Assembly (NCBI RefSeq): GCF_003002895.1
Contig: NZ_PVTI01000014.1
Span: 1-64,000, forward strand
DNA length: 64,000 nt
Source: Knoellia remsis
Lineage (GTDB): Bacteria > Actinomycetota > Actinomycetes > Actinomycetales > Dermatophilaceae
Direction of reading: 5' to 3'
In this document: positions 282 through 61,308 of the stretch, piece after piece
Layout of the letters: each line of letters begins with the position of its first letter
How positions within the stretch are numbered: position 1 is the stretch's first letter
Translations under genes and position numbers: made by a program
The notes under the pieces: model-generated
Database searches by the model: none
What the model saw: the letters and a program-made list of their open reading frames with translations, nothing else
Told to the model about the DNA's origin: nothing

Positions 282-320
282 GGCGCGCGCGGGTCCCACG
301 CTCTGCGCGGGCCGGCATAC
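282..320 (+). repeat. 39-bp dispersed repeat, copy 1, ending in the CGGCATAC octamer
   Basis: This 39-bp stretch matches the reverse complement of 37709-37747 at 38 of 39 positions. It carries a near-perfect hairpin (CCCACGC-TCT-GCGCGGG here; CCCACGC-TCT-GCGTGGG, perfect, in copy 2) followed by CGGCATAC. In one frame it would encode [13 protein letters not shown], the same peptide found in the N-terminal extension of IspF. The rest of 104-413, between the partial frame and the WXG100 gene, holds no gene I can support. Confidence 0.7.
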
Positions 321-413
321 CTGTGGAAAACTCCGCGGCCGAATTCGGGATCTTCCCTACCGTCATCGTCAGAGGTCGCGCACGAGGTGCGGCCGGACAC
401 GAAGGGGACCGAC

Positions 414-704
414 ATGGCAGCCCAGTTCCAGGTGGACACCGAGCGCATCACCGCCGCCTCCGGTGACATCGCCCGCATCAGCAACGAGATCGAGGCGCAG
501 GTCGCGCAGATGCTCTCGCGACTCACCGCCCTCCAGGACGCGTGGAAGGGCGGCGCCGCCACCCAGTTCCATGGCGTCGTCACGCAGTGGCAGGGCACCC
601 AGCGCCAGGTGCAGAGCTCACTTGCCTCCATCGGTCAGGTGCTCGGCGCAGCCGGCGCGCAGTACGCCGAGACCGAGGCGAACAACACCCGCATGTTCTC
701 GTGA
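414..704 (+). CDS. WXG100 (ESAT-6-like) protein
   Basis: A 96-residue protein with the size and make-up of WXG100 proteins, small helical-hairpin substrates or partners of type VII (ESX) secretion. The signature W-x-G is visible as DAWKGGAA near residue 44, in the turn between two amphipathic helices that are rich in Ala, Gln and Ser. The start is the ATG at 414 with GGGGAC upstream; the frame is open further upstream but that part runs through the 39-bp repeat and is not protein-like. No second WXG100 gene or ESX component is seen beside it, so its secretion partners lie elsewhere. The role is inferred from the family only. Confidence 0.85.
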   Translation: MAAQFQVDTERITAASGDIARISNEIEAQVAQMLSRLTALQDAWKGGAATQFHGVVTQWQGTQRQVQSSLASIGQVLGAAGAQYAETEANNTRMFS

Positions 705-823
705 CTCCACGGGCCGCCCGCACGCGTGCTGATGGAGGGGTCAGCACGTGACCGGGCGGCCCGAGGTTCGCGGCGCCCCGCGCCCACAGGTCGCGGTGCC
801 CCTCGCCCCACGGTCACGACGTC

Positions 824-3370
824 TCACTCCGTCGTGACGGCGCGCAGGATGTCGAGCTTCGAGGCCCGCCATCCTGGCCACCAGGCCGCGAGCACGCCGA
901 CCACTCCGGCGAGCCCGACGAAGAACACCAGCTGTGGCCACGGCACGGCGAGCAGCTCGATCCCGTCGTCGGCAAGCGAGCGTTGCAGCGCCACGCCGAA
1001 CGCCACCCCGAGGACGACACCCAGGGTCGCGCCGAGCAGGGCGATGACGATCGACTCCAGACGCAGCATTCGCTTGAGCTGGCGACGGCTCAGGCCGACC
1101 GCTCGCAGCAGCCCGATCTCCCGGGTCCGTTCGATGACCGACAGCGCGAGCGTGTTGATGATGCCGAGGATCGCGATGACGACGGCCAGCCCGAGCAACG
1201 CATAGATGAGGTAGAGCATCTGGTTGATCATCCCGCCCTGCTCGTCGGCGTACTCGGACTTGTCCTTGACGGTCACGACGGGCAGGTCGGCGATCGCGGC
1301 ATCGAGGGCACGCCCGACGCTCGCCTCGCTCCGCCCGGAGTCCCGTTCGACGAAGACGTAGGCATCGGTGTTCGGCGCCCCAAGACTCGTCAGCCCGGCG
1401 CGGCTCAGGACGACGTCGGATCCGATGATCGTCGACTCGTCGTGGATCGCACTGACCCGGAAGGGTTTCGTCGTCCCACCCCGCGTCAGCTCGACGGTCG
1501 ACCCGACGCGCAGCGACCGCGCCGCCGCCTCCTCCTTCGACACGGAGACGGTCGTCGACGTCAGGTCGGCGATGTCGCCCTCGACCATGACCCGGTCCCC
1601 GATCATGTCGACCTTGTCCGGCTCGAGCGCCAGCGCACTCGCCTGCGTCCCGCCCACGGCGAGCCGGTCGAACGTCAGCGCGGACACGCGCGACACCCCG
1701 TCCACGCCGGCGAGCTCCTTCGCAACCTCGCCGGAGAACGGCATACCGATCGCGCTCGAGACGACGTAGTCGGCCGTGAAGCCCTTGTCGATGGCCGCGT
1801 CGATGCTCGTCTTCGCACTCGCGCCGAGGACGGACATCATCGACACGAGCGTCACGCCGATCATCAGCGCCGATGCGGTCGCCCCGGTGCGCCGCGGGTT
1901 ACGGATTGCATTCTGCTCGGCCATGAGCCCCACCGCGCCGAAGAGGCGCCGATACACCCAGCCGATGCCTCCCACGACCGGTCGGCCCACGAAGGGGCTG
2001 ACGAGCGCAACCCCGAGGACGACGCCGAGGATGCCCGCTCCGATCCAGTACGTCTCGTTCGGCACGTCCGCGAAGAGCCCCGTCCCGAGCAGCCCCGCGC
2101 CGGCCACGGTGAGCAGGGTTCCGAGCAGCGCCCGTCCGCGCATGCCGCTCTCGGCGAGGAGCGCGTCATCGCGCATCGCCGCGACGGGCGGCACCTTGCC
2201 CGCCTTGCGTGCCGGAAGGTATGCCGCGACGAGGGTCACGACGAGGCCCACCGCGAGCGAGACGAGGATCGTTCGAGGGGCGACGACGAGGGACTGCGAG
2301 CTGAGGTCCAACCCGAACCGGCCGAAGAGGACGCGGATGAGCATCGCGAGGAGGATGCCGAGGCCCAGCCCGATCGCCGACCCGACGAGGCCGATCGCGG
2401 TCGCCTCGAACAGCACCGAACGCGCCACCTGTCGACGCGTCGAACCGAGCGCCCGGAAGAGCGCGAGCTCCCGGGACCGCTGCGCCACCAAGATGCTGAA
2501 CGTGTTGACGATGAGGAACGACCCCACGACGAGGGCGACGCCGGCGAACACGAGCAAGAAGGTGGTGATGAACCCGAGGGCTTCCTGGATGTCGCTCGCG
2601 GCGGCCTCCGCTGCCGCGTCACCGGTGACGGCTTCGACGCCGTCGGGCAGCTGCGCGGCGACGGCGTCGCGCAAGTCCGCCTGACTCGTGCCCGGCTCGG
2701 CCGTGACCCAGATGTCGGTGAACGTGTCGGCGCCCTGGGTGAAGAGTTGCTGCGCCTGCTCGGTGTCGAAGATCGACAGGCTCGCCCCGTTGAGCCCGCC
2801 GCTGCTCCGGGCGATTCCGACGAGCCGGGCCTCGAACCGGGGCTGCTCGCCCGCGCTCACGAGAGGGACGGTCTCGCCGACGAGGTAGCCACCCTTCTCG
2901 GCGGTGCGTTCGTCGAGGACGACCTCACCGGCGGCACTCGGCCACCGGCCGCTGACGATCGTGAGCGGCTCGACGCCCTTGGCCGCGGGTCCGCCGGTGT
3001 GGTTGAGGGCGATGCCGGGTGGACCGTAGCCGCCGACGAGCTTGCCCTGCTTCGACACGACGAAGGTGCCGAAGCTCGTGATGTTCCCGTCGACCCGCGC
3101 GGCGCCGGGGGTGTCCTCGAGCTCGGTGACGAGGGAGGCGGGCAGCGACGCGGTGGACGGCTGGGACTCGGGATCGACGTCGGTGCCACCGGCCGGACGC
3201 ACGACGACGTCCCCAACCGAGCTCGACATGATCGAGTCGAAGCTCTTGCCGAGGGTGTCGGTGAAGACGAACGACCCCGCGACGAACGCGACGCCGAGGA
3301 TGATCGCGAAGGCGCTCATGAACAGCCGCAGCTTGCGGGCCATGAGGCTCTTCCAGCTGGCGCGCAGCAT
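824..3370 (-). CDS. ABC transporter permease, MacB/FtsX type, duplicated FtsX domains
   Basis: An 848-residue membrane protein. It has an N-terminal membrane segment (about residues 17-39), a large extracytoplasmic MacB-type domain, a first FtsX permease core at about 260-385 (starting FITTFLLVFAGVALVVGSF), further helices near 405-470, a second periplasmic part, and a second FtsX core at about 715-840. The motif after the first core, QRSRELALFRALGSTRRQV, and its counterpart ERTREIGLLRAVGLSRRQL, are typical coupling regions of this family. It follows its ATPase by 6 nt, so the two form one exporter operon. The family moves lipids, lipoproteins, peptides or drugs across or out of the membrane; the substrate is not evident. 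Confidence 0.92.
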   Translation of the reverse strand: MLRASWKSLMARKLRLFMSAFAIILGVAFVAGSFVFTDTLGKSFDSIMSSSVGDVVVRPAGGTDVDPESQPSTASLPASLVTELEDTPGAARVDGNITSFGTFVVSKQGKLVGGYGPPGIALNHTGGPAAKGVEPLTIVSGRWPSAAGEVVLDERTAEKGGYLVGETVPLVSAGEQPRFEARLVGIARSSGGLNGASLSIFDTEQAQQLFTQGADTFTDIWVTAEPGTSQADLRDAVAAQLPDGVEAVTGDAAAEAAASDIQEALGFITTFLLVFAGVALVVGSFLIVNTFSILVAQRSRELALFRALGSTRRQVARSVLFEATAIGLVGSAIGLGLGILLAMLIRVLFGRFGLDLSSQSLVVAPRTILVSLAVGLVVTLVAAYLPARKAGKVPPVAAMRDDALLAESGMRGRALLGTLLTVAGAGLLGTGLFADVPNETYWIGAGILGVVLGVALVSPFVGRPVVGGIGWVYRRLFGAVGLMAEQNAIRNPRRTGATASALMIGVTLVSMMSVLGASAKTSIDAAIDKGFTADYVVSSAIGMPFSGEVAKELAGVDGVSRVSALTFDRLAVGGTQASALALEPDKVDMIGDRVMVEGDIADLTSTTVSVSKEEAAARSLRVGSTVELTRGGTTKPFRVSAIHDESTIIGSDVVLSRAGLTSLGAPNTDAYVFVERDSGRSEASVGRALDAAIADLPVVTVKDKSEYADEQGGMINQMLYLIYALLGLAVVIAILGIINTLALSVIERTREIGLLRAVGLSRRQLKRMLRLESIVIALLGATLGVVLGVAFGVALQRSLADDGIELLAVPWPQLVFFVGLAGVVGVLAAWWPGWRASKLDILRAVTTE

Positions 3371-3376: not shown

Positions 3377-4330
3377 TCAGTCCTGCTCGCGCGCGTCGCG
3401 CGCCGTCGTGGGTATGCCGCGCGCGGCCATGTCGTCCGCGTGGCCGTGCGCGCCCCGCGCCTCCCGCGAGCTCGTGGGTATGCCGCGCGTGGGTATGCCG
3501 TCCGCCTCGCCCTGCGCGCCCCGCACCTCCCGCGCGTCCAGGCTCTTCATCGTCTCGAGGATCAGGTCCGGCGTCGGCTCGCGCAGCTCGGTGACGATCT
3601 GGCCGTCGGCGAGGAAGACGACGCGGTCGGTCCAGCTCGCCGCACCCGGGTCGTGGGTGACCATGACGATCGTCTGCCCGAACTCGTCGACCGAGCGCCG
3701 CAGGAACGCCAGCACCTCGGCGCCGGACGTCGAGTCGAGGTTGCCCGTGGGCTCATCCGCGAAGATGACCGCCGGCCGGCTCACCAACGCTCGTGCACAC
3801 GCGACGCGCTGCTGCTGGCCACCGGACAGCTCACCGGGCCGGTGGGTCAGCCGGTCGCGCAGCCCCACCGTGTCGATGACGGTGTCGAACCACTCCGGGT
3901 CCGGCTTGCGACCGGCGATCGACAGCGGCAGGACGATGTTCTCCTGCGCGCTGAGCGTCGGGATGAGGTTGAACGACTGGAAGATGAAGCCGATGTAGTC
4001 GCGGCGCACCTTCGTGAGGTCCTTCTCGCGCAACGCGGTCAGGTCCACGCGTCCGAGCTTGACGACTCCGCTCGTCACCGAGTCCAAACCGGCGGCGCAG
4101 TGCATGAGCGTCGACTTGCCGGAGCCCGACGGCCCCATGATCGCGGTGAACTCCCCTGCCGCGATGTCGAGGCTCACCCCGTCGAGGGCGCGGACGGCGG
4201 TGTCGCCCGAGCCGTAGGTCTTGACGAGGTCGGTCACCCGGGCCGCGACGCGCCGGCGCGCCTGCCCGTCGGGGGCGGTGACGCTCGGTGTGGAGCTGTC
4301 GGAACGTTCGGGCACGACGTCGGTGGTCAT
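3377..4330 (-). CDS. ABC transporter ATPase, MacB/LolD type, with repetitive C-terminal tail
   Basis: A 317-residue ATPase partner of the downstream FtsX-type permease. Walker A is GPSGSGKST, the Q-loop lies in GFIFQSFNLI, the signature is LSGGQQQR and Walker B is VIFADEPTGNLD, the form typical of LolD/MacB proteins. The start is taken at ATG 4330 because a -10 box TAGCGT (4338-4343) sits exactly 7 nt upstream, which predicts a leaderless mRNA. The last 45 or so residues are not part of the fold. They come from a 66-bp in-frame tandem repeat (3405-3534), each unit ending RGIPT and carrying CGGCATAC copies with the rare Ile codon ATA. Confidence 0.93.
   Translation of the reverse strand: MTTDVVPERSDSSTPSVTAPDGQARRRVAARVTDLVKTYGSGDTAVRALDGVSLDIAAGEFTAIMGPSGSGKSTLMHCAAGLDSVTSGVVKLGRVDLTALREKDLTKVRRDYIGFIFQSFNLIPTLSAQENIVLPLSIAGRKPDPEWFDTVIDTVGLRDRLTHRPGELSGGQQQRVACARALVSRPAVIFADEPTGNLDSTSGAEVLAFLRRSVDEFGQTIVMVTHDPGAASWTDRVVFLADGQIVTELREPTPDLILETMKSLDAREVRGAQGEADGIPTRGIPTSSREARGAHGHADDMAARGIPTTARDAREQD
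3405..3534 (-). repeat. 66-bp in-frame tandem repeat in the ABC ATPase tail
   Basis: Two 64-bp imperfect copies, 3405-3468 and 3471-3534, are offset by 66 bp, that is 22 codons. Each encodes a version of RE(A/V)RGA(H/Q)G followed by a variable stretch and RGIPT. The pair holds three GTATGCCG octamers (3412, 3478, 3493). The ATPase core is complete before this tail, so the repeat looks like an added element that kept the frame. Confidence 0.75.
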
Positions 4331-5147: not shown

Positions 5148-5202
5148 ACCCGCCGTCGGACCATGCGCGCGAGGCGCGCGGCCGGCATACGCGCAGGGCA
5201 GA

Positions 5203-5239: not shown

Positions 5240-5263
5240 GTATGCCGTGTGGCCGGCGTGGGA

Positions 5264-7073: not shown

Positions 7074-7213
7074 CGGCAACCGGCTCGCTCCGTATGCCGT
7101 TCGCGCGCCTTTCGTGGTCAGTGCGGACCGACGGACGTGCGATGGGCGGCAGAGCACAGCGCCGACCAGCACAGCTGAGCACGAGGTCGTCGGCGCCCGC
7201 CGGTCCGAGCCCC

Positions 7214-8076: not shown

Positions 8077-8901
8077 TCAGGCCGACAGCACCCCGGCCGT
8101 GAGGAGGATGAGCGTCGCCGACCCGAGCAGGACCCGGTAGATGACGAACGGCGTGTACGAGCGCGTGCTGACATACCTCAGCAACCAGGCGATCGCGGCA
8201 TACCCGACGAGGAAGGACACGATCGTGCCGACGAGCGTCGGCCCCCAGCCGTAGGCGTTGTCACCGCCCGGGATCTCCGGCAGCTGGAAGAGGCCCGCAC
8301 CCACGACCGCCGGGATGGCGAGGAGGAACGCGTAGCGCGTCGCCGCCTCGCGCTCGTAGCCGAGGAAGCGGCCCATCGAGATCGTCGCGCCGCTGCGGGA
8401 GACGCCGGGGATGAGCGCCATCGCCTGGGCGGCACCCAGCAGCACCGCGTCGCGCATGGTGAGGGCGTCGATCTTCTTGGTGTTCGGGCCGATCCGGTCG
8501 GCGATGCCGAGGACGATGCCGAGGACGATGAGGGTCGTCCCGATGATCCAGAGGTTGCGGAAGTCCCGCTCGATGATGTCCTTGAGTAGCACGCCGAGGA
8601 TGACGATCGGCAGCGAGCCGACGATGATGAACCAGCCCATCCGGGCGTCGTCGCTGCCGCGCCACTCGGGCTTGAACAGCGCGAGCACCCAGGCCTTGCC
8701 GATGCGCCAGATGTCCTTGCGGAAGTAGATGAGGACCGCGAGCTCGGTACCGATCTGGACGACGGCGGTGAACGCGGCGCCCGGGTCGCCCCAGCCGAAC
8801 AGCTCGGGGAAGATCCGCAGGTGGGCGCTGCTCGAGATCGGCAGGAACTCGGTGAGGCCCTGCAGGATCCCGAGGACGACGGCCTTGATGAGATCGAACA
8901 C
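8077..8901 (-). CDS. uppP: Undecaprenyl-diphosphatase UppP (BacA)
   Basis: A 274-residue multi-pass membrane enzyme that removes a phosphate from undecaprenyl diphosphate to recycle the lipid carrier for cell-wall synthesis; the family also gives bacitracin tolerance. Both active-site regions are visible: GLTEFLPISSSAHL near residue 15 and PGVSRSGATISMGR near residue 165. Length and hydrophobic profile are those of the family. The start is GTG 8901; a TAGGCT -10 box at 8910-8915, 8 nt upstream, suggests its own near-leaderless promoter although it follows two genes on the same strand. Confidence 0.96.
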   Translation of the reverse strand: MFDLIKAVVLGILQGLTEFLPISSSAHLRIFPELFGWGDPGAAFTAVVQIGTELAVLIYFRKDIWRIGKAWVLALFKPEWRGSDDARMGWFIIVGSLPIVILGVLLKDIIERDFRNLWIIGTTLIVLGIVLGIADRIGPNTKKIDALTMRDAVLLGAAQAMALIPGVSRSGATISMGRFLGYEREAATRYAFLLAIPAVVGAGLFQLPEIPGGDNAYGWGPTLVGTIVSFLVGYAAIAWLLRYVSTRSYTPFVIYRVLLGSATLILLTAGVLSA

Positions 8902-8926: not shown

Positions 8927-9388
8927 TCAGAGCTCGGGCGCGTGGCCCTCGAACGTCGCCCGCATCGCGCCGTCCGCCTCGGACGTCACCGGGTCCTCGA
9001 GGTCGGCGACGAAGACCGCGACGAGCGTGCGGGCCGGGTTCGACTCGGCCTCGTCGAGCGCCGCGCGCCAGGCCGCGAGGTTGGGGTGCTCCCCCGGCGT
9101 CGCCTGCGCCGGCTCCAGCGACTCGACGGCCGCGGCGAGCTGAGCGGTCGTGAGGTCGACCGTCGCGCTCGACCCATCGTGGCCGAGCACCGTCGCGAGC
9201 ACGACGGCGGGCAGCCCGTTGCCGGTGTTGGGCGTGTTGACGTGCCCGAACTCCCACTCCGGCGAGCTCGACGCGGGACTCAGCCCCACGGCATACGCGA
9301 CCGGCTGGCGCCAGCCCTCGATCCGCGACGCGAGGTGGTCCCGGATGGCGACGAGCCCCTCCGGCGTGGACCAGTCGAGCTCGGCCAT
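8927..9388 (-). CDS. Hypothetical protein
   Basis: A 153-residue soluble, acidic protein that I do not recognise. It starts MAELDWSTPEGLVAIRDHLA, has a Gly/Asn-rich stretch around residues 45-62 (GHVNTPNTGNGLPAVVLATV), and ends in a predicted strand-helix region (ARTLVAVFVADLEDPVTSE). It sits 12 nt after the DUF3263 gene and 25 nt before uppP on the same strand, so it may share a transcript with both. Neither motifs nor context give a function. Confidence 0.7.
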   Translation of the reverse strand: MAELDWSTPEGLVAIRDHLASRIEGWRQPVAYAVGLSPASSSPEWEFGHVNTPNTGNGLPAVVLATVLGHDGSSATVDLTTAQLAAAVESLEPAQATPGEHPNLAAWRAALDEAESNPARTLVAVFVADLEDPVTSEADGAMRATFEGHAPEL

Positions 9389-9771: not shown

Positions 9772-10482
9772 CCGGCGTGTTGGCTGGACACGGCTCACCG
9801 TGTCGTGCTCACGCGCCTCAGTCGTCACATCCGTCCCACCCAGCAGGTATGCCGTGAGCTGCTCGACGCTGTCGACGACAGCGTCCGGGCCGGTCGCCTC
9901 GAGCGCCTCGCGGGTGCCCGCGCCCCAGGTGACGGCGACGGCGTGCATGCCGGCGGCCTTCGCGGCGAGGACGTCGACGGTGGCGTCGCCGACGTAGACC
10001 GCATCGGCGGGGTCGGCGCCGACCTTGCCCGCGGCGACGAGGAGTGGGTCGGGGTCGGGCTTGTGCCGGTCGGTGTCCTCGAGCGCGCCGGCGACGTCGA
10101 TGAGGCCGTCGATGCCGACGCCGACGAGGGCGAGCCGGGCGGTGTCGGTGCGCTTGGAGGTGACGACGTGGAGGTTCGCACCGGCCTCGGTGAGCGCGGT
10201 CAGCATCTCGGGCACGCCGGCATACCGCTCGATGAGGCGCTCGGTGTTGGCGAGGTTCCACTCGCGATAGGTGGCGTCGAGGTCGTGCCCGCGTTCAGGG
10301 CTCTCCTCAAGGAGTGCGGGGAGGAGCGGGCGGCCGATCCACGCGCGGGCGCGAGCGTCGTCGACCTCCTCCCCGAGCACGGTGCGGAAGGCGTGCTGGT
10401 AGGACGCGACGATGAGCGGGATCGTGTTGGCGAGGGTGCCGTCGAGGTCGAAGAAGATCGTCTGCCAGCGCGGGGTGCTCAC
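9763..10482 (-). CDS. HAD-superfamily hydrolase, phosphoglycolate-phosphatase-like
   Basis: A 239-residue HAD phosphatase. Motif I is FFDLDGTLANT (nucleophile and acid Asp), motif II VVTSKR, motif III lysine KPDPDPLLVAA and motif IV VYVGDATVD. The helical cap lies between motifs I and II, as in Gph and PpaX proteins. It is 7 nt after the second arsC gene and appears to be the last gene of the arsenic operon, although its role may be unrelated, such as removal of phosphoglycolate or pyrophosphate. The last 30 residues are unlike the family and end in the promoter/operator region of the next gene. Confidence 0.85.
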   Translation of the reverse strand: MSTPRWQTIFFDLDGTLANTIPLIVASYQHAFRTVLGEEVDDARARAWIGRPLLPALLEESPERGHDLDATYREWNLANTERLIERYAGVPEMLTALTEAGANLHVVTSKRTDTARLALVGVGIDGLIDVAGALEDTDRHKPDPDPLLVAAGKVGADPADAVYVGDATVDVLAAKAAGMHAVAVTWGAGTREALEATGPDAVVDSVEQLTAYLLGGTDVTTEAREHDTVSRVQPTRRVE

Positions 10483-11307: not shown

Positions 11308-11984
11308 GAGGCCTCCTGCGGCTCGAGGACGAAGAGATGGATGCCGGCCAGGCCCACCAGTGTGCCGGTCACCTGGGCGAGGACGAACGGAAGAACCGAC
11401 TCAGGGGCGATACCGGCGAAGCTGTCGCTGAACATCCGGGCGATGGTCACCGCCGGGTTGGCGAACGAGGTCGACGACGTGAACCAGTAGGCCGCGAGGA
11501 TCCACAGCGCGACGAGCCCCGGCGCCAGGTGGTCGCGACGGCCGCGGCTCACGTATCCCACGACGAGCACGAGCCCGACGGTCGCGACGACCTCGCTCAG
11601 CCAGCGACCGGCCCCGGGACGCTGCGTCGTGGCGAGCTGGAGGGGAGCAAGGTCGAACATGAGCTTCGCGATGACGACGCCGAGCACTCCCCCGGCGACC
11701 TGGGCCACGGCATACGCGGGCAGGTGCGGCCACGGCAGGTCCCGGCGGGCCGCCTGCGCGAGCGACACGGCGGGGTTGAGGTGGGCGCCGCTCACCGGGG
11801 CGAGGACGGTGATGAGCACGGCCAGGGCCGCCACCGAGGCGAGCGCGTTGGCCAGGAGCTGCAGGCCGATGTCATCGGTGAGGCGCTGGGCCATGATCCC
11901 GGAGCCGACGACCGCGGCGAGCAGCCCGCCGGTCCCGACCAGCTCTGCCGCGAGCGCCCGGGAGAGCACCGTCACCGGCAGCAC
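11304..11984 (-). CDS. MIP-family channel (AqpS-like aquaglyceroporin) in arsenic operon
   Basis: A 226-residue membrane channel with six helices and the two half-helix motifs HLNPAVS (near residue 69) and FANPAVT (near 176). In arsenic operons such channels let arsenite, and in some cases methylarsenite, leave the cell passively. No ArsB or Acr3 pump is present in this operon, so this channel is likely to be the exit route after ArsC reduction, as shown for rhizobial AqpS. The start overlaps the end of the arsI-like gene by 13 nt, and its stop overlaps arsC copy 1 as ATGA. Confidence 0.88.
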   Translation of the reverse strand: MLPVTVLSRALAAELVGTGGLLAAVVGSGIMAQRLTDDIGLQLLANALASVAALAVLITVLAPVSGAHLNPAVSLAQAARRDLPWPHLPAYAVAQVAGGVLGVVIAKLMFDLAPLQLATTQRPGAGRWLSEVVATVGLVLVVGYVSRGRRDHLAPGLVALWILAAYWFTSSTSFANPAVTIARMFSDSFAGIAPESVLPFVLAQVTGTLVGLAGIHLFVLEPQEAS

Positions 11985-17247: not shown

Positions 17248-17368
17248 CGGTCGATTCTAGGGAGCGGCGACCGTATGCCGTCCGCGCGGTTCGCTGCGTG
17301 GGCCTCGCCTGCGCGAGTGGCCGGTAGAGTGCAGGACGCCGTCGGGGGCGAGACGCTCGCCGACGTAC

Positions 17369-17629: not shown

Positions 17630-17636
17630 TGTGTAT

Positions 17637-20130: not shown

Positions 20131-20133
20131 CCC

Positions 20134-43503: not shown

Positions 43504-43545
43504 GAGAGATCCCGTATGCCGCGCGCGCGGCATACGGGATCTCTC
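43504..43545. terminator. Perfect 42-bp palindrome built from two opposed GTATGCCG octamers
   Basis: The sequence from 43504 to 43545 is perfectly self-complementary, with octamers at 43514-43521 and 43528-43535 and a CGCGCGCG centre. After a small bulge the stem extends further through CACGAG (43496-43501) and CTCGTG (43551-43556). It lies between convergent phoU and gpmA and should terminate both. A second hairpin, GGCGGCGCAG paired with CTGCGCCGCC, lies at 43577-43622. Confidence 0.85.
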
Positions 43546-49076: not shown

Positions 49077-49877
49077 GTGGCGACGAGCAGGCCCGTGGGG
49101 GTGATCACCCGCGGCACGACCAACCCGAACCGGTTGCGCCGGGGCGACCGCTGGCTCGCGGGACCGCAGGCGTGGCGACTTCGGCGGGCGCCCGAGCCGC
49201 CCGTCGTCGTGGACCTCGGCTACGGCGCCTCCCCCGTCACGGCCGTCGAGCTGCACGACCGGCTGAGCCGGGTCCGTCCCGACGTCGAGGTCGTGGGCAT
49301 CGAGATCGACCCCGAGCGCGTCGCGGCCGCGCAGCGGCTGGAGCGGCCCGGGCTGGGCTTCCGGCGCGGCGGGTTCGAGGTCCCGCTCGACGGACGCGAC
49401 GCGACGGTGATCCGGGCCTTCAACGTCCTGCGCCAGTACGACGAGGCGGAGGTCGACGGCGCGTGGGACCGGCTGCGGTCACGGCTCGCCCCCGACGGGC
49501 TACTCGTGGACGGCACGTGCGACGAGCTCGGCCGCCTCGCCGCCTGGGTCGCCGTCACCCGCGATGGACCGCAGAGCCTGACCTTCTCGTGGCACCTGCG
49601 CGGTCTCGACCGTCCGTCCGTCGTCGCCGAGCGACTGCCCAAGGCGCTCATCCATCGCAACGTCCCCGGCGAGCCGGTCCACGCCTTCCTCGCCGACCTC
49701 GACCGGCACTGGGAACGACAGGCCGCGCACGCGGCATACGGTGTGCGACAACGGTTCCGGGCGACGGCACAGGCGATGCGCGGCGCTGGGTGGCCGCTCG
49801 TCGACGGCCCGGCACGGTGGCGGCTCGGCGAGCTCACCGTCGCGTGGTCAGCGGTGCGGCCTCACCAGGGGCCGTAG
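49077..49877 (+). CDS. SAM-dependent class I methyltransferase
   Basis: A 266-residue protein. The SAM motif I is VVVDLGYGASPVTAVEL and the acidic loop is VVGIEIDPERVAAAQRL. The N-terminus (RGTTNPNRLRRGDRWL) and the C-terminal region after residue 170 are characteristic of an actinobacterial conserved group of unknown target. Its GTG start is 3 nt after the isomerase stop, so they are co-transcribed. The last 16 nt overlap the end of the convergent DUF2516 gene. Confidence 0.8.
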   Translation: MATSRPVGVITRGTTNPNRLRRGDRWLAGPQAWRLRRAPEPPVVVDLGYGASPVTAVELHDRLSRVRPDVEVVGIEIDPERVAAAQRLERPGLGFRRGGFEVPLDGRDATVIRAFNVLRQYDEAEVDGAWDRLRSRLAPDGLLVDGTCDELGRLAAWVAVTRDGPQSLTFSWHLRGLDRPSVVAERLPKALIHRNVPGEPVHAFLADLDRHWERQAAHAAYGVRQRFRATAQAMRGAGWPLVDGPARWRLGELTVAWSAVRPHQGP

Positions 49878-50681: not shown

Positions 50682-51737
50682 TCAGATGCCCACGGCGACC
50701 ACGGAGCCGACCGGCTGGCCGTGCCCGAGGATCGGCGCGTCCTCGAGGGCCCCGAGCGCGCCGGTCTCGACGCCGAGGCGACGCAGCACCGCGGCGAGGA
50801 TGACCGTGCGCGCCCGCTGCCCGCCGTCAGCGACCTTGAGGGCGATGCCGCGGCCGTCCGCGAGACCCACGGCATACACCGCCTCGGCACCGTCCTTGGC
50901 AATGGCTCCGGAGGTGCCCCGGATGAACGCCGTGACGTCGCGGCGGGTGCCGCCGAGGAACTCTGGGTGCGCCCGGATCGCGTCGGCGACCCTCGCCTCA
51001 TCCGTGCCCGAATCCGCGCTCGCGAGCCGGCCGAAGGCGCGCGCCAGCCCGGCGAGCGACACGGCCATGACCGGGGCGCCGCAGCCGTCGACGGCGGTGG
51101 CCGCGACCGGCTCGCCCGCGAGCTCGGCCAGGGTGTCGGCGCAGGCCTGCTGGAGTGGGTGGTCGAGCTCGCGGTACGTCGCGAGGTCCCAGCCGTTCGC
51201 GACGCACGTCGCGAGCATGCCGGCGTGCTTGCCGGAGCAGTTCTGGGCGATCGACTCCTTGTCGCGTCCGTCGCGCACCCAGGCGAGGCGGGCCACCTCG
51301 TCGTAGGGGAAGTCGGGGGTGTTCTGGAGGTCGCCGACAGCCAAGCCCGCACCGGCGAGGATCTCGACGACCGCCTCGAGGTGGAACGGCTCGCCCGAGT
51401 GGCTCGCGCAGACGAGCGCGAGGTGGTGGGGCGCGACGTCGAGCCCGGCCCGGACCATCGCGAGCGCCTGGATCGGCTTGTTCGACGAACGCGGGAAGAC
51501 CGGGTCGGTGGCGTCGCCGAGGACGAGCTCGACGGAGCCGTCGGGAGCCGTGACGACGACGCTGCCCCGGTGCACTGACTCGACGAAGCCACCCCGGACG
51601 GCCTGTGCGAGGACGGGCGCCTCACCGAGCACGGCGGGCGTCGGCAGCGTCGGACCTGCGTGGGCCGAGGTGGCGGCTGGCCCGGCGGCGGGGTGACCGG
51701 AAGGTGCGGCGGACTGCGGAAGGGGCGCGGACGGCAT
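50682..51737 (-). CDS. Asparaginase (PF06089-type)
   Basis: A 351-residue enzyme of the second bacterial asparaginase family (unrelated to AnsA/AnsB). It shows LAQAVRGGFVESVHRGSVVV, SSNKPIQALAMV, CASHSGEPFHLEAV, AQNCSGKHAGMLATC, GCGAPVMAVSLAGLA and GTSGAIAKDGAEAVYAVG, all conserved blocks of this family. The first 35 residues are Pro/Ala-rich. ATG 51737 sits inside a CGGCATAC octamer and 7 nt after a GATACT -10-like box (51745-51750), so this start and a leaderless mRNA are preferred to a longer frame. Confidence 0.88.
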   Translation of the reverse strand: MPSAPLPQSAAPSGHPAAGPAATSAHAGPTLPTPAVLGEAPVLAQAVRGGFVESVHRGSVVVTAPDGSVELVLGDATDPVFPRSSNKPIQALAMVRAGLDVAPHHLALVCASHSGEPFHLEAVVEILAGAGLAVGDLQNTPDFPYDEVARLAWVRDGRDKESIAQNCSGKHAGMLATCVANGWDLATYRELDHPLQQACADTLAELAGEPVAATAVDGCGAPVMAVSLAGLARAFGRLASADSGTDEARVADAIRAHPEFLGGTRRDVTAFIRGTSGAIAKDGAEAVYAVGLADGRGIALKVADGGQRARTVILAAVLRRLGVETGALGALEDAPILGHGQPVGSVVAVGI

Positions 51738-51794
51738 ACGGACCAGTATCGACACCGCCTCCACCTCAGCAGTATCGGGTCGCCCGACAACGCA

Positions 51795-51829: not shown

Positions 51830-51859
51830 GACGTCGTACCTGATGTGGCCGTATGCCGG

Positions 51860-52977: not shown

Positions 52978-53112
52978 CTCCTCCAGTGTGCTTGCTGTAG
53001 TTAGCACTTTGCAAACTGACGCAAGCGTGATGGTGAACACAGGCGGTCGGGTGCGCTTCCGGCATACGGTCTCACGTATGCCGTCCGCTTGGGCTTGCCC
53101 TAATCTTGCGTT

Positions 53113-54695: not shown

Positions 54696-55733
54696 TCAGG
54701 GGGTGACGATGACGGTTTGTGCGCCAGCCACGCCCTCGGCCACAAGATCAGCGCCGACCGGGGTGTTCCGCTTGACGACGGCGAGCGCGATCGGCCCGTC
54801 CTCGTGGTGGCGCGCGACCGACGTGAGCCGCCCGACCTCGCGCCCGTCGAGGGTCAGCGGCGTCCCGGCCGCCGGCAGGACGTGCCCGGACCCGTCGAGG
54901 TGGAGGAAGACGACCCGTCGCGGCGGTCGCCCGAGGTTGTGCACCCGCGCGATCGTCTCCTGCCCGCGATAACAACCCTTGTGCAGGTGCACCGCCGTCC
55001 GTAGCCAGTCGACCTCATGGGCGATCGTCCGGTGGTCGGTCTCGAACCCGAGCCGCGGCCGCCATGCCGCAACCCGCAGGGCCTCGGCCGCCCAGACGCC
55101 GGCCAAGGGCCGGTCGCCCACCGCCTCCTCCAGCGACGCGCGGGGCACGATTACCTCGCGCCAGCGCCGCGCCTCACCCGGGTGGTCGCTCTCCGGGCCG
55201 TATGCCGCGGTGTCACCCACCAGCGCCGGCCACGGGTCCACCCACGTCGGCGGCTCCCCCTCCGCACCGAGAGACGAAATCGGTTCTCCGAGAACGGCAT
55301 ACGCGTCGGTCACGTCAGCAACCTCGACGCGCAGCATGAAGCGCATCGAGTCGAGCCAAGCGACGAGCGCGGGCGCGGTGCCGGGCTCGACCGTGACCCA
55401 CGCCGACTCGCCGTCGTCGACGAGGTGCAGTGCGTGCTCGACGTGGCCCTTCGGTGAGAGGACGAGTGTCTCGACCGAGGTGCGCGGCGCGAGCCCGGTG
55501 AGCTGTTGCGTCGTCATCGAGTGCAGCCAGGTGAGCCGGTCCGGACCGGACACGCGCACGACACCGCGGTGCGAGAGGTCGACGACGGCGAGGCCCTCCT
55601 CGAGGAGGCGCTGCTCGCGGACCGGGTCGCCGTAGTGCGCGGCGACCCCGGCGTCGGCGCCCTCCCCCTCGACGGCGCCCGGACGGGGGAGCAGCGGAGA
55701 GGGGGCCACGGTGACGGTCGTCGTGTCGGTCAT
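54696..55733 (-). CDS. ygfZ: YgfZ/GcvT-domain folate-dependent Fe-S repair protein
   Basis: A 345-residue protein of the GcvT-like fold. The diagnostic YgfZ motif is HLHKGCYRGQETIARVHNLG (K-G-C-Y-x-G-Q-E), and the N-terminal part has GVVRVSGPDRLTWLHSMTTQ. It binds folate and helps maintain or repair iron-sulphur enzymes. The ATG at 55733 overlaps the stop of the fur-family gene as ATGA, so Fe/redox regulator and Fe-S repair protein are made together, as in many actinobacteria. Confidence 0.92.
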   Translation of the reverse strand: MTDTTTVTVAPSPLLPRPGAVEGEGADAGVAAHYGDPVREQRLLEEGLAVVDLSHRGVVRVSGPDRLTWLHSMTTQQLTGLAPRTSVETLVLSPKGHVEHALHLVDDGESAWVTVEPGTAPALVAWLDSMRFMLRVEVADVTDAYAVLGEPISSLGAEGEPPTWVDPWPALVGDTAAYGPESDHPGEARRWREVIVPRASLEEAVGDRPLAGVWAAEALRVAAWRPRLGFETDHRTIAHEVDWLRTAVHLHKGCYRGQETIARVHNLGRPPRRVVFLHLDGSGHVLPAAGTPLTLDGREVGRLTSVARHHEDGPIALAVVKRNTPVGADLVAEGVAGAQTVIVTP

Positions 55734-56158
55734 GTCTCTTCCCTGGGACTCCTGCAGTCGCGGCACAGGCCGTGGATCGCGGCATGGGTGACGTCGGCCT
55801 CGAATCCGAGTGAACGGTCGAGCCGCTCGACGAATTCCTTCGCCACATCGGTCGGTGCCTCGCCCACGGAACCGCACTCACGGCATACGACATGGACGTG
55901 CGTGGCATGCGACGCGAGGTGGTAGCTCGGCACGCGATGGTCGACGTGCGTGTGGCTCACGAGCCCGAGATCCTGCAGCGCCTCGAGCGAGCGGTAGACC
56001 GTCGACAGCGCCATCGGCGCACCACCGCGCGCGGCGACCGTGTCGACGATCTGCTCCGGGGTGGCGTGGCCCAGCTCCTCGACCGCATCGAGCACGAGCT
56101 GGCGCTGCGGCGTCAGCCGTCGTCCGGCGGCCCGCAGTCGCGCGCCGAGATCACTCAC
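55730..56158 (-). CDS. Fur-family metalloregulator
   Basis: A 142-residue regulator. The winged helix contains LTPQRQLVLDAVEELGHATP and LSTVYRSLEALQDLGLVSHT. The metal region has HLASHATHVHVVCRECGSVG and LCRDCRSPRE, giving two CxxC zinc pairs and several His. It could be a FurA, Zur or PerR relative. Start GTG 56158 is 6 nt after TACATT (56165-56170); that -10 box overlaps the first unit of an array of four GTATGCCG octamers. It is coupled to ygfZ. Confidence 0.92.
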   Translation of the reverse strand: MSDLGARLRAAGRRLTPQRQLVLDAVEELGHATPEQIVDTVAARGGAPMALSTVYRSLEALQDLGLVSHTHVDHRVPSYHLASHATHVHVVCRECGSVGEAPTDVAKEFVERLDRSLGFEADVTHAAIHGLCRDCRSPREET

Positions 56159-56167: not shown

Positions 56168-56261
56168 GTATGCCGGTGACCGCCGCAGGCGTATGCCGGT
56201 CACGACGACGGGGGTATGCCGGCCGCGCACCTTGCGCGTATGCCGGCCGCGCGCCTCGCGT
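56168..56261. repeat. Array of four GTATGCCG octamers, 23-24 bp apart
   Basis: Octamers start at 56168, 56191, 56214 and 56238, all in the same direction, in the divergent fur/LCP gap. Flanking bases are partly conserved (GTATGCCGGTCACG, GTATGCCGGCCGCGC). The spacing is about two helix turns and the first unit overlaps the fur -10 box, so the array looks like binding sites (iteron-like). Confidence 0.75.
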
Positions 56262-57422: not shown

Positions 57423-57932
57423 TCACTCGACGCGCTTGAGCTCTGCGGAGACGTGCGAGGTGAGCGGCTCGCCCATGGCGGCCATGTCCATGACCCAGAG
57501 CAGGTTCGACTGGACGTAGCCGTACATGCGGTGCCCCGCGGTGTACTCCTTCGCGTGCGGGCTGCGCATGACGCCGTCGGTGCGCAGCTCGATCTTCGCG
57601 GGCTGCGCATGACCGGCATACATCTCGACGATGCCGCTCGGGTGGGCGAGGAGCAGCTCGACGTTGGTGCCGTCCGGCGTCTCCGGGACACCCCGCCAGA
57701 AGCCGGTCTCGGTGGCGAGCGGGCGAACCTTCTCGCCCTCCTCGTCGAGGAGCCACGTCTGGCTGCGCCACTCGAGGAACGGGCGCCCGTCGTGGGTGCA
57801 GGTGATCTCCTGGCCGAAGTTCACCGACTCCATGGTCGGGTAGCCGACGACGCCGGCGCCGGCCCAGGTCCCGACGAGCCACGCGAGCGGGGCGACGTCG
57901 GAGTGCAGGGAGGTGTCGAGATGGAAGGGCAC
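57423..57932 (-). CDS. Nitrobindin-like haem-binding beta-barrel protein (DUF1794)
   Basis: A 169-residue protein of the FABP-like/nitrobindin family. The family signature G-x-W-x-G-x-G appears as LVGTWAGAGVVGYPT, followed by FGQEITCTHDGRPFLEWRSQ and WVMDMAAMGEPLTSHVSAEL, with His 157 in place of the haem-ligand histidine. Nitrobindins bind ferric haem and react with nitric oxide or peroxynitrite. GTG 57932 is 7 nt after TACGAT (57940-57945). It is divergent from a DsrE-type gene. Confidence 0.88.
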   Translation of the reverse strand: MPFHLDTSLHSDVAPLAWLVGTWAGAGVVGYPTMESVNFGQEITCTHDGRPFLEWRSQTWLLDEEGEKVRPLATETGFWRGVPETPDGTNVELLLAHPSGIVEMYAGHAQPAKIELRTDGVMRSPHAKEYTAGHRMYGYVQSNLLWVMDMAAMGEPLTSHVSAELKRVE

Positions 57933-58426: not shown

Positions 58427-59290
58427 TCAGCCGACGAAGAAGTTGGCGAGCACGAGCACTGGCACCGCGCCGATGAGCACCCCGGCCACGGCGGCCGTGA
58501 CCTGGCCGCGCATCCCCCGGACGGGCGGCAGCGCGGCGAGGGCCCGCCGCATCACGTGCGCCAGCCCGGCGGCGACCATACCGATGACGCCGCCCGCGAG
58601 GAGCCCGACGTCATCGAGCAGCCGGCCGGTGACGCCGCCACCGACGAGACCCAGCAGCGCCGCCAGGGGGAACATCCAGGGCCGCACCTTGTCATACGGG
58701 GCGGAGAGGTCGGCCAGCGAGGAGAGGGCGACCGCCGCCGCCACGGCGAGCACGACGTGGGGGCCGCCGAACGTCCGGCCGAGCGGGACCCAGGCGGCGC
58801 CCATCGTCGCGATGGCGATGCCGGCGGCGCTCACGGCGATCGACTGCGTCAGCCGCGGCCGGCCGTCCCGCCGCAGCAGCTGGTGCAGGAACATCGCGAG
58901 CAGGGCGCCCGCGACGACGACCGGCAGGTGCCGCAGGAACGGCTGGTCCGGCGTGAGCGCGACGACGATCGGGGCGATGACACCGGCCACGCCGATGGCG
59001 ATGGACGACCCGAACCGGCTCGACGACCCGAGCAGCCCCGGCCAGCCCCAGGCGAGGACGATGCCGCCCCACGCGACCGCGGCCGCACCCAGCGCGGGGT
59101 CCGCCGCGAACCCGAGAGCCAGCAGGCCGGCATACAGGATCGTCGCGAGGACGAGGGTGACGCGGCGCTCGGTGGCGATCGGCGGAAGGATCGGGTTGCG
59201 ACGTCGCTCCTCGCGCGCCGCGCGCCGGGCGGCGCGCGAGTCGCTCACCGGCTGCGTCGCTTCCACGGCAGGCATCCTGCCATCACCCAC
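58427..59290 (-). CDS. Hypothetical multi-pass membrane protein
   Basis: A 287-residue protein with eight predicted helices after a basic, Arg-rich head (SRAARRAAREERRRNPILPP). Helices include LILYAGLLALGFA-like and VAGVIAPIVVALTP segments. I do not recognise the family; the type is common in actinobacteria. GTG 59290 gives the longest frame and has a G-rich stretch 8 nt upstream; ATG 59275 is possible. It starts 4 nt after the MoaD-like gene, so they are co-transcribed. Confidence 0.7.
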   Translation of the reverse strand: MGDGRMPAVEATQPVSDSRAARRAAREERRRNPILPPIATERRVTLVLATILYAGLLALGFAADPALGAAAVAWGGIVLAWGWPGLLGSSSRFGSSIAIGVAGVIAPIVVALTPDQPFLRHLPVVVAGALLAMFLHQLLRRDGRPRLTQSIAVSAAGIAIATMGAAWVPLGRTFGGPHVVLAVAAAVALSSLADLSAPYDKVRPWMFPLAALLGLVGGGVTGRLLDDVGLLAGGVIGMVAAGLAHVMRRALAALPPVRGMRGQVTAAVAGVLIGAVPVLVLANFFVG

Positions 59291-59294: not shown

Positions 59295-59573
59295 TCAGCC
59301 CCCGGCGAACGGCGGGAGCAGCTCGACGACCGCGCCCTCGGCGACCTCGAGGTCCCGCGAGGACGCGCGCCCGTCGACGATGACCGAGCACACCGCGACG
59401 ACCTCGGTCAGGTCCGGGTGCGCGGCGACCGCGGCGTCGAGGACGTCACCGACCAGCGGCCCCGTCTCGAGGGTCTCCTCGGCGACGCCGGCGGCCGCGC
59501 GGGCACCGGCCCAGTAGCGCACCGTCACCGGTCTCACAGCCCGGCGATTCGGGTCCGTCACGCTCGCATCCAC
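59295..59573 (-). CDS. MoaD/ThiS-type sulphur carrier protein
   Basis: A 92-residue ubiquitin-like protein ending in the essential GG ([12 protein letters not shown]). The fold begins at [19 protein letters not shown] and VEELLPP-like end matches MoaD, which is thiocarboxylated and gives sulphur to molybdopterin; ThiS-like roles cannot be excluded. No moaE is adjacent. The start is GTG 59573, back to back with the glnR start 15 nt away. Confidence 0.85.
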
Positions 59574-59587
59574 CTATCCTGTGCGGG

Positions 59588-60286
59588 ATGGCCCAACTCC
59601 TGCTGCTGACCAACGCCTTGGCGCCAAGCGCCGAGGTGCTGCCAGCACTGGGCCTGCTGAGCCACCATGTTCGCATCCTCCCGGCGGAGCCGACGGCCCT
59701 CATCGACGCACCCCCGGCCGAGGCGGTCCTCGTCGACGCGCGTCGTGAGCTCGCGATGGCCCGCTCGCTGTGCCGCGTCATCCGCACGACCGGGTTGTCC
59801 GTGCCGCTCTTCGCCGTCCTCACCGAGGGTGGGCTGGCCGGGCTGACGCCGGAGTGGGGCATCGACGACGTCTTCCTCGACACGGCCGGCCCGGCGGAGG
59901 TCGAGGCGCGGCTCCGGCTCGCGATCGCCCGCGCCCTCGACGTCGACGGCGAGGAGGACGAGGTCCGCATCACCGCGGGCGCCCTCGTCATCGACGAGGC
60001 GACCTACTCCGTGCGGCTGCGCGGGGTGGTGCTCGACCTCACCTACAAGGAGTTCGAGCTGCTCAAGTACCTCGCGCAGCATCCCGGCCGCGTCTTCACG
60101 CGCGCGCAGCTGCTGCAGGAGGTCTGGGGCTACGACTACTTCGGCGGCACGCGCACCGTCGACGTGCACGTGCGCCGGCTGCGCGCCAAGCTCGGCTCGG
60201 ACCACGAGAGCCTCATCGGCACGGTGCGCAACGTCGGCTACCGGTTCGTGCCCGAGGAGGCCGAACCCGAGACGGCGACCTCGTGA
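59588..60286 (+). CDS. glnR: OmpR-family regulator, GlnR-like
   Basis: A 232-residue regulator with an atypical receiver (it lacks the usual acidic pair but keeps an Asp in [10 protein letters not shown]) and a normal winged helix: [20 protein letters not shown] and [18 protein letters not shown]. This form, and the neighbouring mshD, match actinobacterial GlnR, an orphan regulator of nitrogen genes. ATG 59588 is 7 nt after TATCCT (59575-59580). Its stop overlaps the mshD start as GTGA. Confidence 0.9.
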
Positions 60287-61308
60287 CGGCGCTGGCGGGC
60301 GTGCGACTCGAGACGTCGTCCTCGCTGGACGCCTCCGTGGTCGGCGCGGTGCGCGACGTGGTGGCGCGGGCGGCGGCGGTCGACGGGGTGGAGGCGATCT
60401 CGGAGGCGTTCGCCCTCGCGCTCGACTCGCCGCATGCGTCGGTCACCCACACCGTCGCGTATGCCGGTGGGTCGCCTTCCGTGCTCGGGTATGCCGTCCG
60501 CGACGATTCCGGGTCGGCGGAGCTCGTCGTGGACCCGGAGTCGCGTCGGCGCGGGGTCGGGCACGCGCTCCTGGATGCGCTGCTCGAGGGTGGCGCGACG
60601 GGGGTGTGGGCGCACGGCGACCTGCCCGCGGCTCGGGCGCTGGCGGGGACGGCCGGGCTCGTCCCGACGCGCGAGCTGCACGTCATGTCGCGACGGGTGC
60701 AGCCCGGCGACGAGGTGGATCCCGTTCTGCCGCAAGGGTTCGCGGTCCGGACGTTCGAGCCGGGGAGGGACGAACAGGCGTGGCTGGCCGTCAACGCCGC
60801 CGCATTTGCGTCGCACCCGGAGCAGGGCTCGATCACGCTCGCGGACCTGCGTGACCGGATGTCGCAGCCGTGGTTCGACGCGGCGGGCTTCTTCCTCGTC
60901 GAGGACACGACGGTGACCGGCGACGACGGCCGGCACCCACTCGCCGCCTTCCACTGGACCAAGAGGGAACCCGGATCACACAACGGGCCGGGCCACGCTC
61001 GAGACGGCGACGAAGGAGCCGGCACCGCACGGCCGGGCCCCGCTCGAGACGGCGACGAAGGAGCCGGCACGAGTGGGGAGGTGTACGTCGTGGGCGTGCA
61101 CCCGGCATACCAAGGACGCGGGCTGGCCGGACCGCTCACCGGGCTCGGCACGGCATACCTCGCCCGTCAGGGCGTCGAGACGATCGAGCTCTACGTCGAC
61201 GGCGACAACACGCGCGCGCTGGCGACCTATCGGCGGGCCGGGTTCGAGGATGCCGCGCTGCACGTCGTCTACGGCAGGGTCACCGGGGCGGGCACCGTCG
61301 CGCCGTAG
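60283..61308 (+). CDS. mshD: Mycothiol synthase with repeat insertion
   Basis: A 341-residue enzyme with two GNAT domains; it acetylates the cysteine amine in the last step of mycothiol synthesis. The first domain has [20 protein letters not shown], the linker the MshD hallmark [20 protein letters not shown], and the second domain [19 protein letters not shown] and [20 protein letters not shown]. Between FHWTKRE and VYVVG, where relatives have a short loop, lies a 45-bp tandem repeat giving two copies of [10 protein letters not shown]. The gene is coupled to glnR, as in mycobacteria (Rv0818-Rv0819). Confidence 0.93.
60984..61073 (+). repeat. 45-bp in-frame tandem repeat inside mshD
   Basis: Two copies with a 45-bp period (GGCCGGGCC at 60986 and 61031) share a 38-nt core with one mismatch, containing CTCGAGACGGCGACGAAGGA. 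They add about 30 residues to a loop of the second acetyltransferase domain. Confidence 0.8.

Follow-up and report, generated by a model that had tools for sequence, protein, structure and literature searches.

A dispersed octamer with one-letter dialects in Knoellia remsis and related actinobacteria as a possible DNA-uptake word

A stretch of 64,000 nucleotides from Knoellia remsis (contig NZ_PVTI01000014.1, positions 1 to 64,000; hereafter the window) raises the question of why a single octamer, GTATGCCG, recurs throughout it and what keeps the copies intact. An earlier note, made from the letters alone, had put the number at about 67 and called the octamer a genome-wide word. We counted 67 exact copies in the window, the first at 313 and the last ending at 61158, against 2.2 expected from base composition, which made GTATGCCG the top 8-mer of the window by composition z. 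Dinucleotide-preserving shuffles of the window contained 0.85 copies on average and at most 4, and none reached 67. The word also ranked first among 8-mers in 200 kb of contig C1. Genome-wide (3,573,222 bases on 62 contigs), we found 3277 copies or about 917/Mb, 1622 of them on the forward and 1655 on the reverse strand, while the reversed word, serving as a control, occurred 276 times (114 forward, 162 reverse). Thus, both the count and the genome-wide character held, the octamer is far commoner than its reversed control, and chance as the source of the copies is rejected by the shuffles as well as by the genome control. The borders of the word were sharp, as 67 of the 72 TATGCC and 67 of the 70 GTATGC strings of the window fell within the full octamer. 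The window and the C1 piece together (264 kb) held 263 exact copies, 29 times as many as composition predicts, with spacing that was near random or slightly more even (coefficient of variation 0.85-0.89).

The copies were distributed over both genes and gaps, as the earlier note had said, albeit at different densities. Using a simple gene caller of our own in place of a standard annotator, we assigned 43 window copies to called genes, 23 to the space between them, and one to a gene edge, which corresponds to 0.75/kb in genes versus 3.34/kb in gaps. Over the window plus C1, single genes fully enclosed 158 copies, 99 were intergenic, and 6 straddled an edge (0.65-0.75/kb versus 3.2-3.3/kb), so that intergenic density was 4-5 times the coding one. 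Shuffling synonymous codons 100 times gave a mean of 7.8 coding copies and a maximum of 15, compared to the 158 observed. Because this shuffle keeps the protein and the codon usage but breaks codon pairs, codon-pair bias was judged by the intergenic excess, which is the larger one. Codon bias is therefore rejected as the source, and the word does override codon choice as proposed: 13 of the 23 ATA codons and 70 of the 162 TAT codons in the 264 kb sit within GTATGCCG. All four readings that the note had listed (Tyr-Ala, Ala-Tyr, Met-Pro, and Gly-Ile-Pro) were present, the commonest being Tyr-Ala in sense frame 2 (70 copies) and Ala-Tyr in antisense frame 1 (59 copies), and coding copies were sense to their gene in 83 cases and antisense in 75. 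Coding copies had no shared flank, by which a longer dispersed repeat behind them is rejected; intergenic copies of this genome shared a weak 3' context, CCGC.C.CC, which was weaker across the genus and different elsewhere.

Neither strand was preferred. The window carried 31 copies on the plus and 36 on the minus strand, the 200-kb piece of C1 carried 99 and 97, and each of its five 40-kb bins was near balance, which argues against roles like those of Chi, FtsK-orienting polar sequences (KOPS), or architecture-imparting sequences (AIMS). The trait of such signals is an orientation that follows replication direction, and no bias of this kind was seen in the stretches examined. A polar Chi or KOPS role is thus rejected, in line with the strand evenness and the non-polar reading given earlier. 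Close neighbours were often inverted: among copies at most 35 bp apart in 34 relatives, we counted 25 inverted versus 2 tandem pairs, contributed by 15 genomes (two-sided p 6e-6).

Conservation at aligned sites, a check that the earlier note had suggested, was evaluated in the cysS region of nine species of the genus, each represented by one genome, at a mean identity of 0.83. The alignment covered one syntenic region, in which 20 kb from each relative was set against the 64-kb window. Its cells are non-independent, since genome pairs were counted in both directions and the species share history. Between species, 566 of 744 aligned cells (76%) kept GTATGCCG intact, compared to 36% for 1679 anagrams and 34% for the 59 anagrams that contain TAT or ATA; another 699 cells had no alignment, and 45 had gaps. 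A single mismatch was found in 8% of the cells for GTATGCCG versus 33% for the anagrams. Thus, GTATGCCG is maintained beyond codon needs, both within and between genes.

The word extends well beyond the genus. We surveyed 98 genomes of the order, 60 from the family of Knoellia (f1) and 38 from other families, and called a genome word-rich at 200 copies/Mb or more, a cut-off of our own. All nine Knoellia genomes were word-rich, as were 37 of the 60 family genomes, representing 29 of 52 genera and ranging from 221 to 1125 copies/Mb, while the 38 genomes of the other families stayed at or below about 64 copies/Mb. In a CysS tree of 58 genomes, a single-gene tree midpoint-rooted for drawing, word-rich genera fell on both sides of the deepest split. 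The word is therefore probably ancestral to the family and was probably lost or respelled many times thereafter. We named f1 by inference from loci on genome contigs; of 592 matching stretches, 80 loci were listed, two of them in f1. Among the matches listed, a locus from a Nostocoides metagenome-assembled genome (best match G015) held 18 GTATGCCG in 19.5 kb, and a Pedococcus locus (best match G039) held only 2 in 21.5 kb. As both genera are Intrasporangiaceae, f1 is probably this family, which we take to be the Dermatophilaceae of GTDB.

Genomes with few or intermediate numbers of GTATGCCG frequently carried one-letter variants of it, which we refer to as dialects. We surveyed 28 such genomes over 48-80 kb each (20 kb for G038) against a codon-shuffle expectation. 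GTATGCCG was firmly replaced by GGATGCCG in G033 (75 copies versus 9.2 expected) and G024 (42 versus 7.0), by GTACGCCG in G047 (68 versus 10.6) and G055 (48 versus 9.3), and by GTATGCGG in G027 (18 versus 1.2). Other variants stood beside GTATGCCG, namely GAATGCCG in G020 (46 versus 1.8), GTATGACG in G034 (25 versus 1.9) and G013 (10 versus 1.3), and GTATGGCG, again in G034 (20 versus 2.9). The figures for GTATGCGG, GAATGCCG, GTATGACG, and GTATGGCG come from the 48-80 kb samples, and whole-genome counts cover GGATGCCG and GTACGCCG. The latter amounted to 3949 GGATGCCG in G033 and 3816 in G024, and to 3903 GTACGCCG in G047 and 2618 in G055; G051 carried two dialects genome-wide, with 1217 GTATGCCG and 2195 GGATGCCG. 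High GTACGCCG counts were also found in G030 (2216) and G031 (1359). Because another family, f5, is raised in GTACGCCG too (770-900 copies versus 74-211 for the control), these two are graded as only probable GTACGCCG dialects, whereas G047 and G055 stay firm, since the codon-shuffle test backs their GTACGCCG as well. Weak signals were seen for GGATGCCG in G009 and for GTACGCCG in G026.

Twelve genomes (G010, G014, G016, G017, G018, G021, G022, G035, G043, G048, G052, and G056) had no word, meaning that none of their top four 8-mers in 48-80 kb was word-like or as prominent as the dialects are; the result for G022 is weak, as the gene caller left half of its sequence between genes. Aligned comparisons showed some in-place replacement of GTATGCCG by the dialect, in 26 of 384 cases in G055, 12 of 358 in G020, and 6 of 125 in G027, against control substitution rates of 0.6, 0.1, and 1.5%, respectively. 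The corresponding figures were 5 of 494 in G024, 2 of 222 in G047, 0 of 310 in G033, and 0 of 309 in G034. An unrelated dispersed word, CGAAGGGG, was seen in sister genera that lack GTATGCCG, with 64 copies versus 10.8 expected in G044 (loci L070, L121, L122, and L148) and 42 versus 5.8 in G045 (L071, L123, and L124); its flanks vary among the 14 copies printed from L070.

A dialect was also abundant in a second family, f19, where GGATGCCG reached 4491 copies in the 3.4 Mb of G095 and 1548 in G079. Across 394 genomes of the class, with ratios taken by hand, the pattern GDATGCCG exceeded its reversed control at least 7-fold, and at most about 21-fold, in 13 of 20 f19 genomes and 2.9- to 6.3-fold in the other seven, and no ratio above about 5.2 was found outside f1 and f19. 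A Microbacterium aerolatum locus carried 26 GGATGCCG in 21.4 kb versus 2.9-4.1 expected, and two loci titled Microbacteriaceae or Microbacterium carried 16 versus 5.4 and 13 versus 3.3. Counts were 9 versus 3.9 in a Herbiconiux locus and 1 versus 1.8 in a Gulosibacter locus, two genera that presumably belong to Microbacteriaceae. The excess in M. aerolatum and the other Microbacteriaceae loci suggests that f19, the second family enriched in GGATGCCG, is probably Microbacteriaceae. Two Nocardioides loci, L151 and L154, held 16 and 10 GTACGCCG in 21.4 and 11.0 kb; in L151, where all copies lay in genes, 4.0 were expected. This may reflect codon-pair bias or a further dialect.

We compared these patterns with known genome-wide words. 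The DNA uptake sequences (DUS) of Neisseriaceae measure 10-12 bp, form eight dialects, and are bound by ComP, a type IV minor pilin. Like GTATGCCG, they occur in thousands of copies per genome, in genes and gaps and as inverted pairs, with dialects one or a few bases apart (PMC3630211, PMC12616744), and Simonsiella muelleri, similarly to G051, carries two dialects in one genome (PMC3630211). In contrast to DUS, GTATGCCG has 8 bp, a different sequence, and a high-GC Gram-positive host in which type IVa pilus genes were not found, and no ComP is known for it. The uptake signal sequences (USS) of Pasteurellaceae (9-bp core, two types) likewise number hundreds to thousands, form inverted pairs, and are spelled by subclade (PMC12616744), and they too are patchy by lineage (PMC1626085). 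USS have AT-rich downstream parts (PMC12616744), whereas coding GTATGCCG copies have no conserved flank, and USS hosts differ from the GTATGCCG host in envelope and pilus type. With both classes, GTATGCCG shares copy excess, missing polarity, upkeep beyond codon needs, dialects, inverted pairs, and uptake machinery genes in the host. DUS and USS are not known to have strand polarity along the chromosome. The cyanobacterial highly iterated palindrome HIP1, GCGATCGC, is also an octamer and is extremely frequent throughout a clade. However, HIP1 is palindromic and tied to orphan methyltransferases (PMC4390886), while GTATGCCG is asymmetric, lacking the palindromic trait of GCGATCGC, and has dialects.

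The K. remsis genome encodes components through which DNA could be taken up. A comEA gene (TIGR00426 over cut-off) adjoins comEC, which scored over cut-off for PF03772 and slightly under it for TIGR00361. A tad cluster encodes a TadA ATPase (TIGR03819) and a TadE minor pilin (NF041390), both over cut-off, a DEAH helicase (TIGR03817), two T2SSF-type proteins, of which one fell below cut-off, and a CpaE-like protein that also fell below it (TIGR03815). The cluster also contains a 64-amino-acid PF14029 protein with a TAEY segment that, by eye, resembles the Micrococcus luteus Flp pilin sequence given in PMC6370729, which makes it a candidate Flp pilin. Markers of a type IVa pilus (PilM and N_methyl models) were absent from the genome, and the PilT-model match was far below cut-off. 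The set resembles that of M. luteus, which is transformed by means of Flp pili, encoded by tad genes, together with ComEA and ComEC (PMC4322843). M. luteus needs two tad clusters (PMC4322843), whereas we read one in K. remsis. The main text of that paper does not use the term "uptake sequence" (PMC4322843). Natural transformation has been shown for two Microbacteriaceae, Rhodoluna (R. lacicola) and Aurantimicrobium (PMC11577799).

Together, the spread, the dialects, the second family, the non-enriched mismatches described below, the conservation, and the com and tad genes favour DNA uptake, one of several options that the earlier note had left open, over the others (nucleoid-protein site, HIP1-like word, methylation mark), but do not prove it. 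We consider it reasonably likely, by analogy, that GTATGCCG is a DNA-uptake word, because among the genome-wide words that we can name only DUS and USS combine thousands of exact copies, no polarity, presence in genes and gaps, inverted pairs, and one-letter dialects. Here we infer three things, namely competence in the genus, biased uptake, and a receptor that reads the word. Such a receptor, most plausibly a minor subunit of the Tad/Flp pilus or another exposed DNA-binding protein, would bind the 8-mer at the cell surface, on double-stranded DNA and in either orientation, during natural transformation. The pilus would then draw the bound DNA to ComEA, and ComEC would pass one strand inside for recombination. 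If word-carrying DNA were preferentially taken up, alleles with the word would displace those without it; the word would thus accumulate wherever it is tolerated, reaching about one copy per kb and lying most densely between genes, and mutated copies would be restored from donor DNA. A shift of receptor preference by one base would let the genome drift to a new dialect.

Several results weigh against a DNA-uptake word. The 24 one-mismatch forms totalled 201 in the 264 kb (0-48 each), compared to 243 by composition and to a codon-shuffle expectation of 216 over the forms seen, and are thus not over-represented, unlike those of Haemophilus and Neisseria gonorrhoeae (PMC1939737); either the reader of the word is stricter than in DUS and USS, or another force is at work. 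In the K. remsis genome itself, neighbours at most 35 bp apart formed 12 inverted versus 8 tandem pairs (p 0.5). As the inverted-pair excess of the relatives and the non-enriched mismatches pull in opposite directions, our estimate was left unchanged. Word density was flat over five quintiles of codon typicality (246 genes, rho 0.03), genes with atypical codons being no poorer in the word, and this uniformity gives the uptake view no help. Searches of plasmids and phages brought up no relatives in which the word content of mobile elements could be gauged. Most dialect copies do not lie at sites that hold GTATGCCG in other genera. ComEC, PilM, N_methyl, PilT, Tad ATPase, and TadE did not separate word-bearing from wordless genera: ComEC was present in 92 of the 98 genomes, TadE in 97, and the Tad ATPase model matched in all 98 at E of 0.001 or less and over cut-off in 83, including 10 of the 12 wordless genomes. 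The ATPase over cut-off was missing in 6 of 37 word-rich genomes (G012, G037, G038, G039, G040, and G041); three of these six are 75-84% complete, and G012, with 889 copies/Mb, is 99% complete. None of the gene families searched tracked the presence of the word across genera, no receptor was found, and no uptake or transformation data for Knoellia turned up.

The main rival is a site bound by an abundant protein that shapes the nucleoid or organises the chromosome, or else a structural word of the HIP1 kind, with dialects arising by drift of specificity. A co-evolving binding protein would fit the exact, strand-balanced, dispersed, gap-dense, and conserved copies and their family-wide one-letter variants equally, and it would sit well with the com and tad genes that wordless genera retain and with one-mismatch forms that show no enrichment. 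Still, it offers no clear cause for whole-genome respelling in related genera, which uptake drive would provide, and the HIP1 version suffers from the palindrome and the methyltransferase link (PMC4390886) that GTATGCCG does not share. We regard this rival as unlikely. The nucleoid proteins known to us have short degenerate or AT-rich sites, never one exact 8-mer at tens of times the control.

The other explanations are weaker still. The word might be read by a methyltransferase or by a BREX (bacteriophage exclusion) or restriction-type system and enriched as a self mark. It is asymmetric, each strand offers adenines open to methylation, and dialects could track changes in the specificity subunit. 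However, genomes usually avoid restriction sites rather than accumulate them, and such systems turn over quickly, unlike one word shared by 29 sampled genera and present as a variant in a second family, which makes this option improbable. A Chi-like recombination signal or a polar signal like KOPS or AIMS would also consist of eight exact bases in thousands of copies, but the strand counts from the window, the C1 piece with its bins, and the genome show no bias, and the word is far denser between genes than within them; we therefore see very little room for it. Least credible of all, and refuted for the bulk of the copies, is the idea that the word is a side effect of bias in codon pairs or in mutation, or of a repeat dispersed between genes. 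The weak 3' context of the intergenic copies speaks for it in part, as some may be duplicated elements. Yet the codon shuffles, the larger excess between genes, the lack of a shared flank in coding copies, the non-enriched mismatches, and a conservation twice that of the anagrams all contradict it, so that codon-pair bias does not explain the enrichment.

If GTATGCCG is a DNA-uptake word, selective uptake would have evolved again in Gram-positive actinobacteria, mostly without the type IVa pilus of the known systems. We give slightly better than even chances to the wider proposal that sequence-selective DNA uptake arose here independently, for the third time and for the first time outside Gram-negatives, and that dialects impede the exchange of genes among genera. 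Differently spelled genera would then be a natural experiment for discovering the receptor by co-variation, the word would predict DNA suited to transforming hard-to-engineer genera, and genera would be seen to be kept from exchanging genes by a barrier that lies in sequence. Should it be a nucleoid-protein site instead, an exact 8-mer at such density and with dialects would be equally unusual. No report of such a word appeared among the matches listed from the open-licence literature on uptake sequences or competence in actinobacteria and Gram-positives.

Table 1. Exact matches to GTATGCCG in the window and an associated inverted repeat; "between genes" follows our own simple gene caller.
Feature	Position	Strand	Remark
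GTATGCCG copy	313..320	-	between genes
GTATGCCG copy	1739..1746	-	
GTATGCCG copy	2219..2226	+	
GTATGCCG copy	3412..3419	+	
GTATGCCG copy	3478..3485	+	
GTATGCCG copy	3493..3500	+	
GTATGCCG copy	5183..5190	-	between genes
GTATGCCG copy	5240..5247	+	between genes
GTATGCCG copy	7092..7099	+	between genes
GTATGCCG copy	8196..8203	-	
GTATGCCG copy	9289..9296	-	
GTATGCCG copy	9847..9854	+	
GTATGCCG copy	10218..10225	-	
GTATGCCG copy	11708..11715	-	
GTATGCCG copy	13522..13529	-	
GTATGCCG copy	15037..15044	-	
GTATGCCG copy	15497..15504	+	
GTATGCCG copy	16647..16654	-	
GTATGCCG copy	17273..17280	+	between genes
GTATGCCG copy	20804..20811	-	between genes
GTATGCCG copy	22291..22298	-	inverted pair with 22301
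GTATGCCG copy	22301..22308	+	inverted pair with 22291
GTATGCCG copy	23566..23573	-	
GTATGCCG copy	25054..25061	+	
GTATGCCG copy	25440..25447	-	
GTATGCCG copy	25557..25564	-	
GTATGCCG copy	26814..26821	-	between genes
GTATGCCG copy	28068..28075	+	between genes
GTATGCCG copy	29740..29747	-	
GTATGCCG copy	30304..30311	+	
GTATGCCG copy	30535..30542	-	
GTATGCCG copy	31206..31213	+	between genes
GTATGCCG copy	32770..32777	-	between genes
GTATGCCG copy	33378..33385	+	
GTATGCCG copy	34197..34204	-	
GTATGCCG copy	34749..34756	+	
GTATGCCG copy	35258..35265	-	between genes
GTATGCCG copy	35317..35324	+	between genes
GTATGCCG copy	37709..37716	+	
GTATGCCG copy	38158..38165	+	
GTATGCCG copy	38490..38497	-	
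GTATGCCG copy	39873..39880	-	between genes
GTATGCCG copy	42686..42693	-	between genes
perfect inverted repeat, potential hairpin	43504..43545	.	between genes; copies 43514 + and 43528 -, 10 more paired bases per outer side; read from flanks
GTATGCCG copy	43514..43521	+	inside inverted repeat 43504..43545
GTATGCCG copy	43528..43535	-	inside inverted repeat 43504..43545
GTATGCCG copy	44706..44713	-	
GTATGCCG copy	44996..45003	+	
GTATGCCG copy	47771..47778	+	
GTATGCCG copy	49732..49739	-	
GTATGCCG copy	50870..50877	-	
GTATGCCG copy	51732..51739	-	between genes
GTATGCCG copy	51851..51858	+	between genes
GTATGCCG copy	53060..53067	-	between genes; inverted pair with 53076
GTATGCCG copy	53076..53083	+	between genes; inverted pair with 53060
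GTATGCCG copy	55200..55207	+	
GTATGCCG copy	55295..55302	-	
GTATGCCG copy	55881..55888	-	
GTATGCCG copy	56168..56175	+	1st of tandem four, between genes
GTATGCCG copy	56191..56198	+	2nd of tandem four, between genes
GTATGCCG copy	56214..56221	+	3rd of tandem four, between genes
GTATGCCG copy	56238..56245	+	4th of tandem four; overlaps called gene start 56240
GTATGCCG copy	57614..57621	-	
GTATGCCG copy	59128..59135	-	
GTATGCCG copy	60459..60466	+	
GTATGCCG copy	60489..60496	+	
GTATGCCG copy	61103..61110	-	
GTATGCCG copy	61151..61158	-	

Two local features of the window accompany these coordinates (Table 1). The tandem four at 56168-56245 are spaced 23-24 bp apart. The longest word-free gap, 17273-20804, spans 3531 bp, a length within expectation, at a GC content of 0.674 versus 0.71 for the window; some of its genes have a weak coding score, and the gap is perhaps a recent insertion.

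The survey also brought up repeats of other kinds. In G016, a CRISPR-like array at L095:16542-17275 has a period of about 61 bp and a repeat with CCCCGCATGCGCGGGGAGCAC; only its first copies are printed, and it probably extends past 17275. In G042 (L068 and L143-L145), ACGCCCTA and CGCCCTAC occurred in 14 intergenic copies each versus 0.7-1.9 expected and are likely an intergenic repeat element. Last, in Corynebacterium sp. HS2168-gen11 (L193:9487-20524), we found 20 copies of TATTAAGG in 11 kb, with unrelated flanks and with none in the first 9.4 kb of L193; 13 of the 20 read CTATTAAGG, and this could be another genome word.

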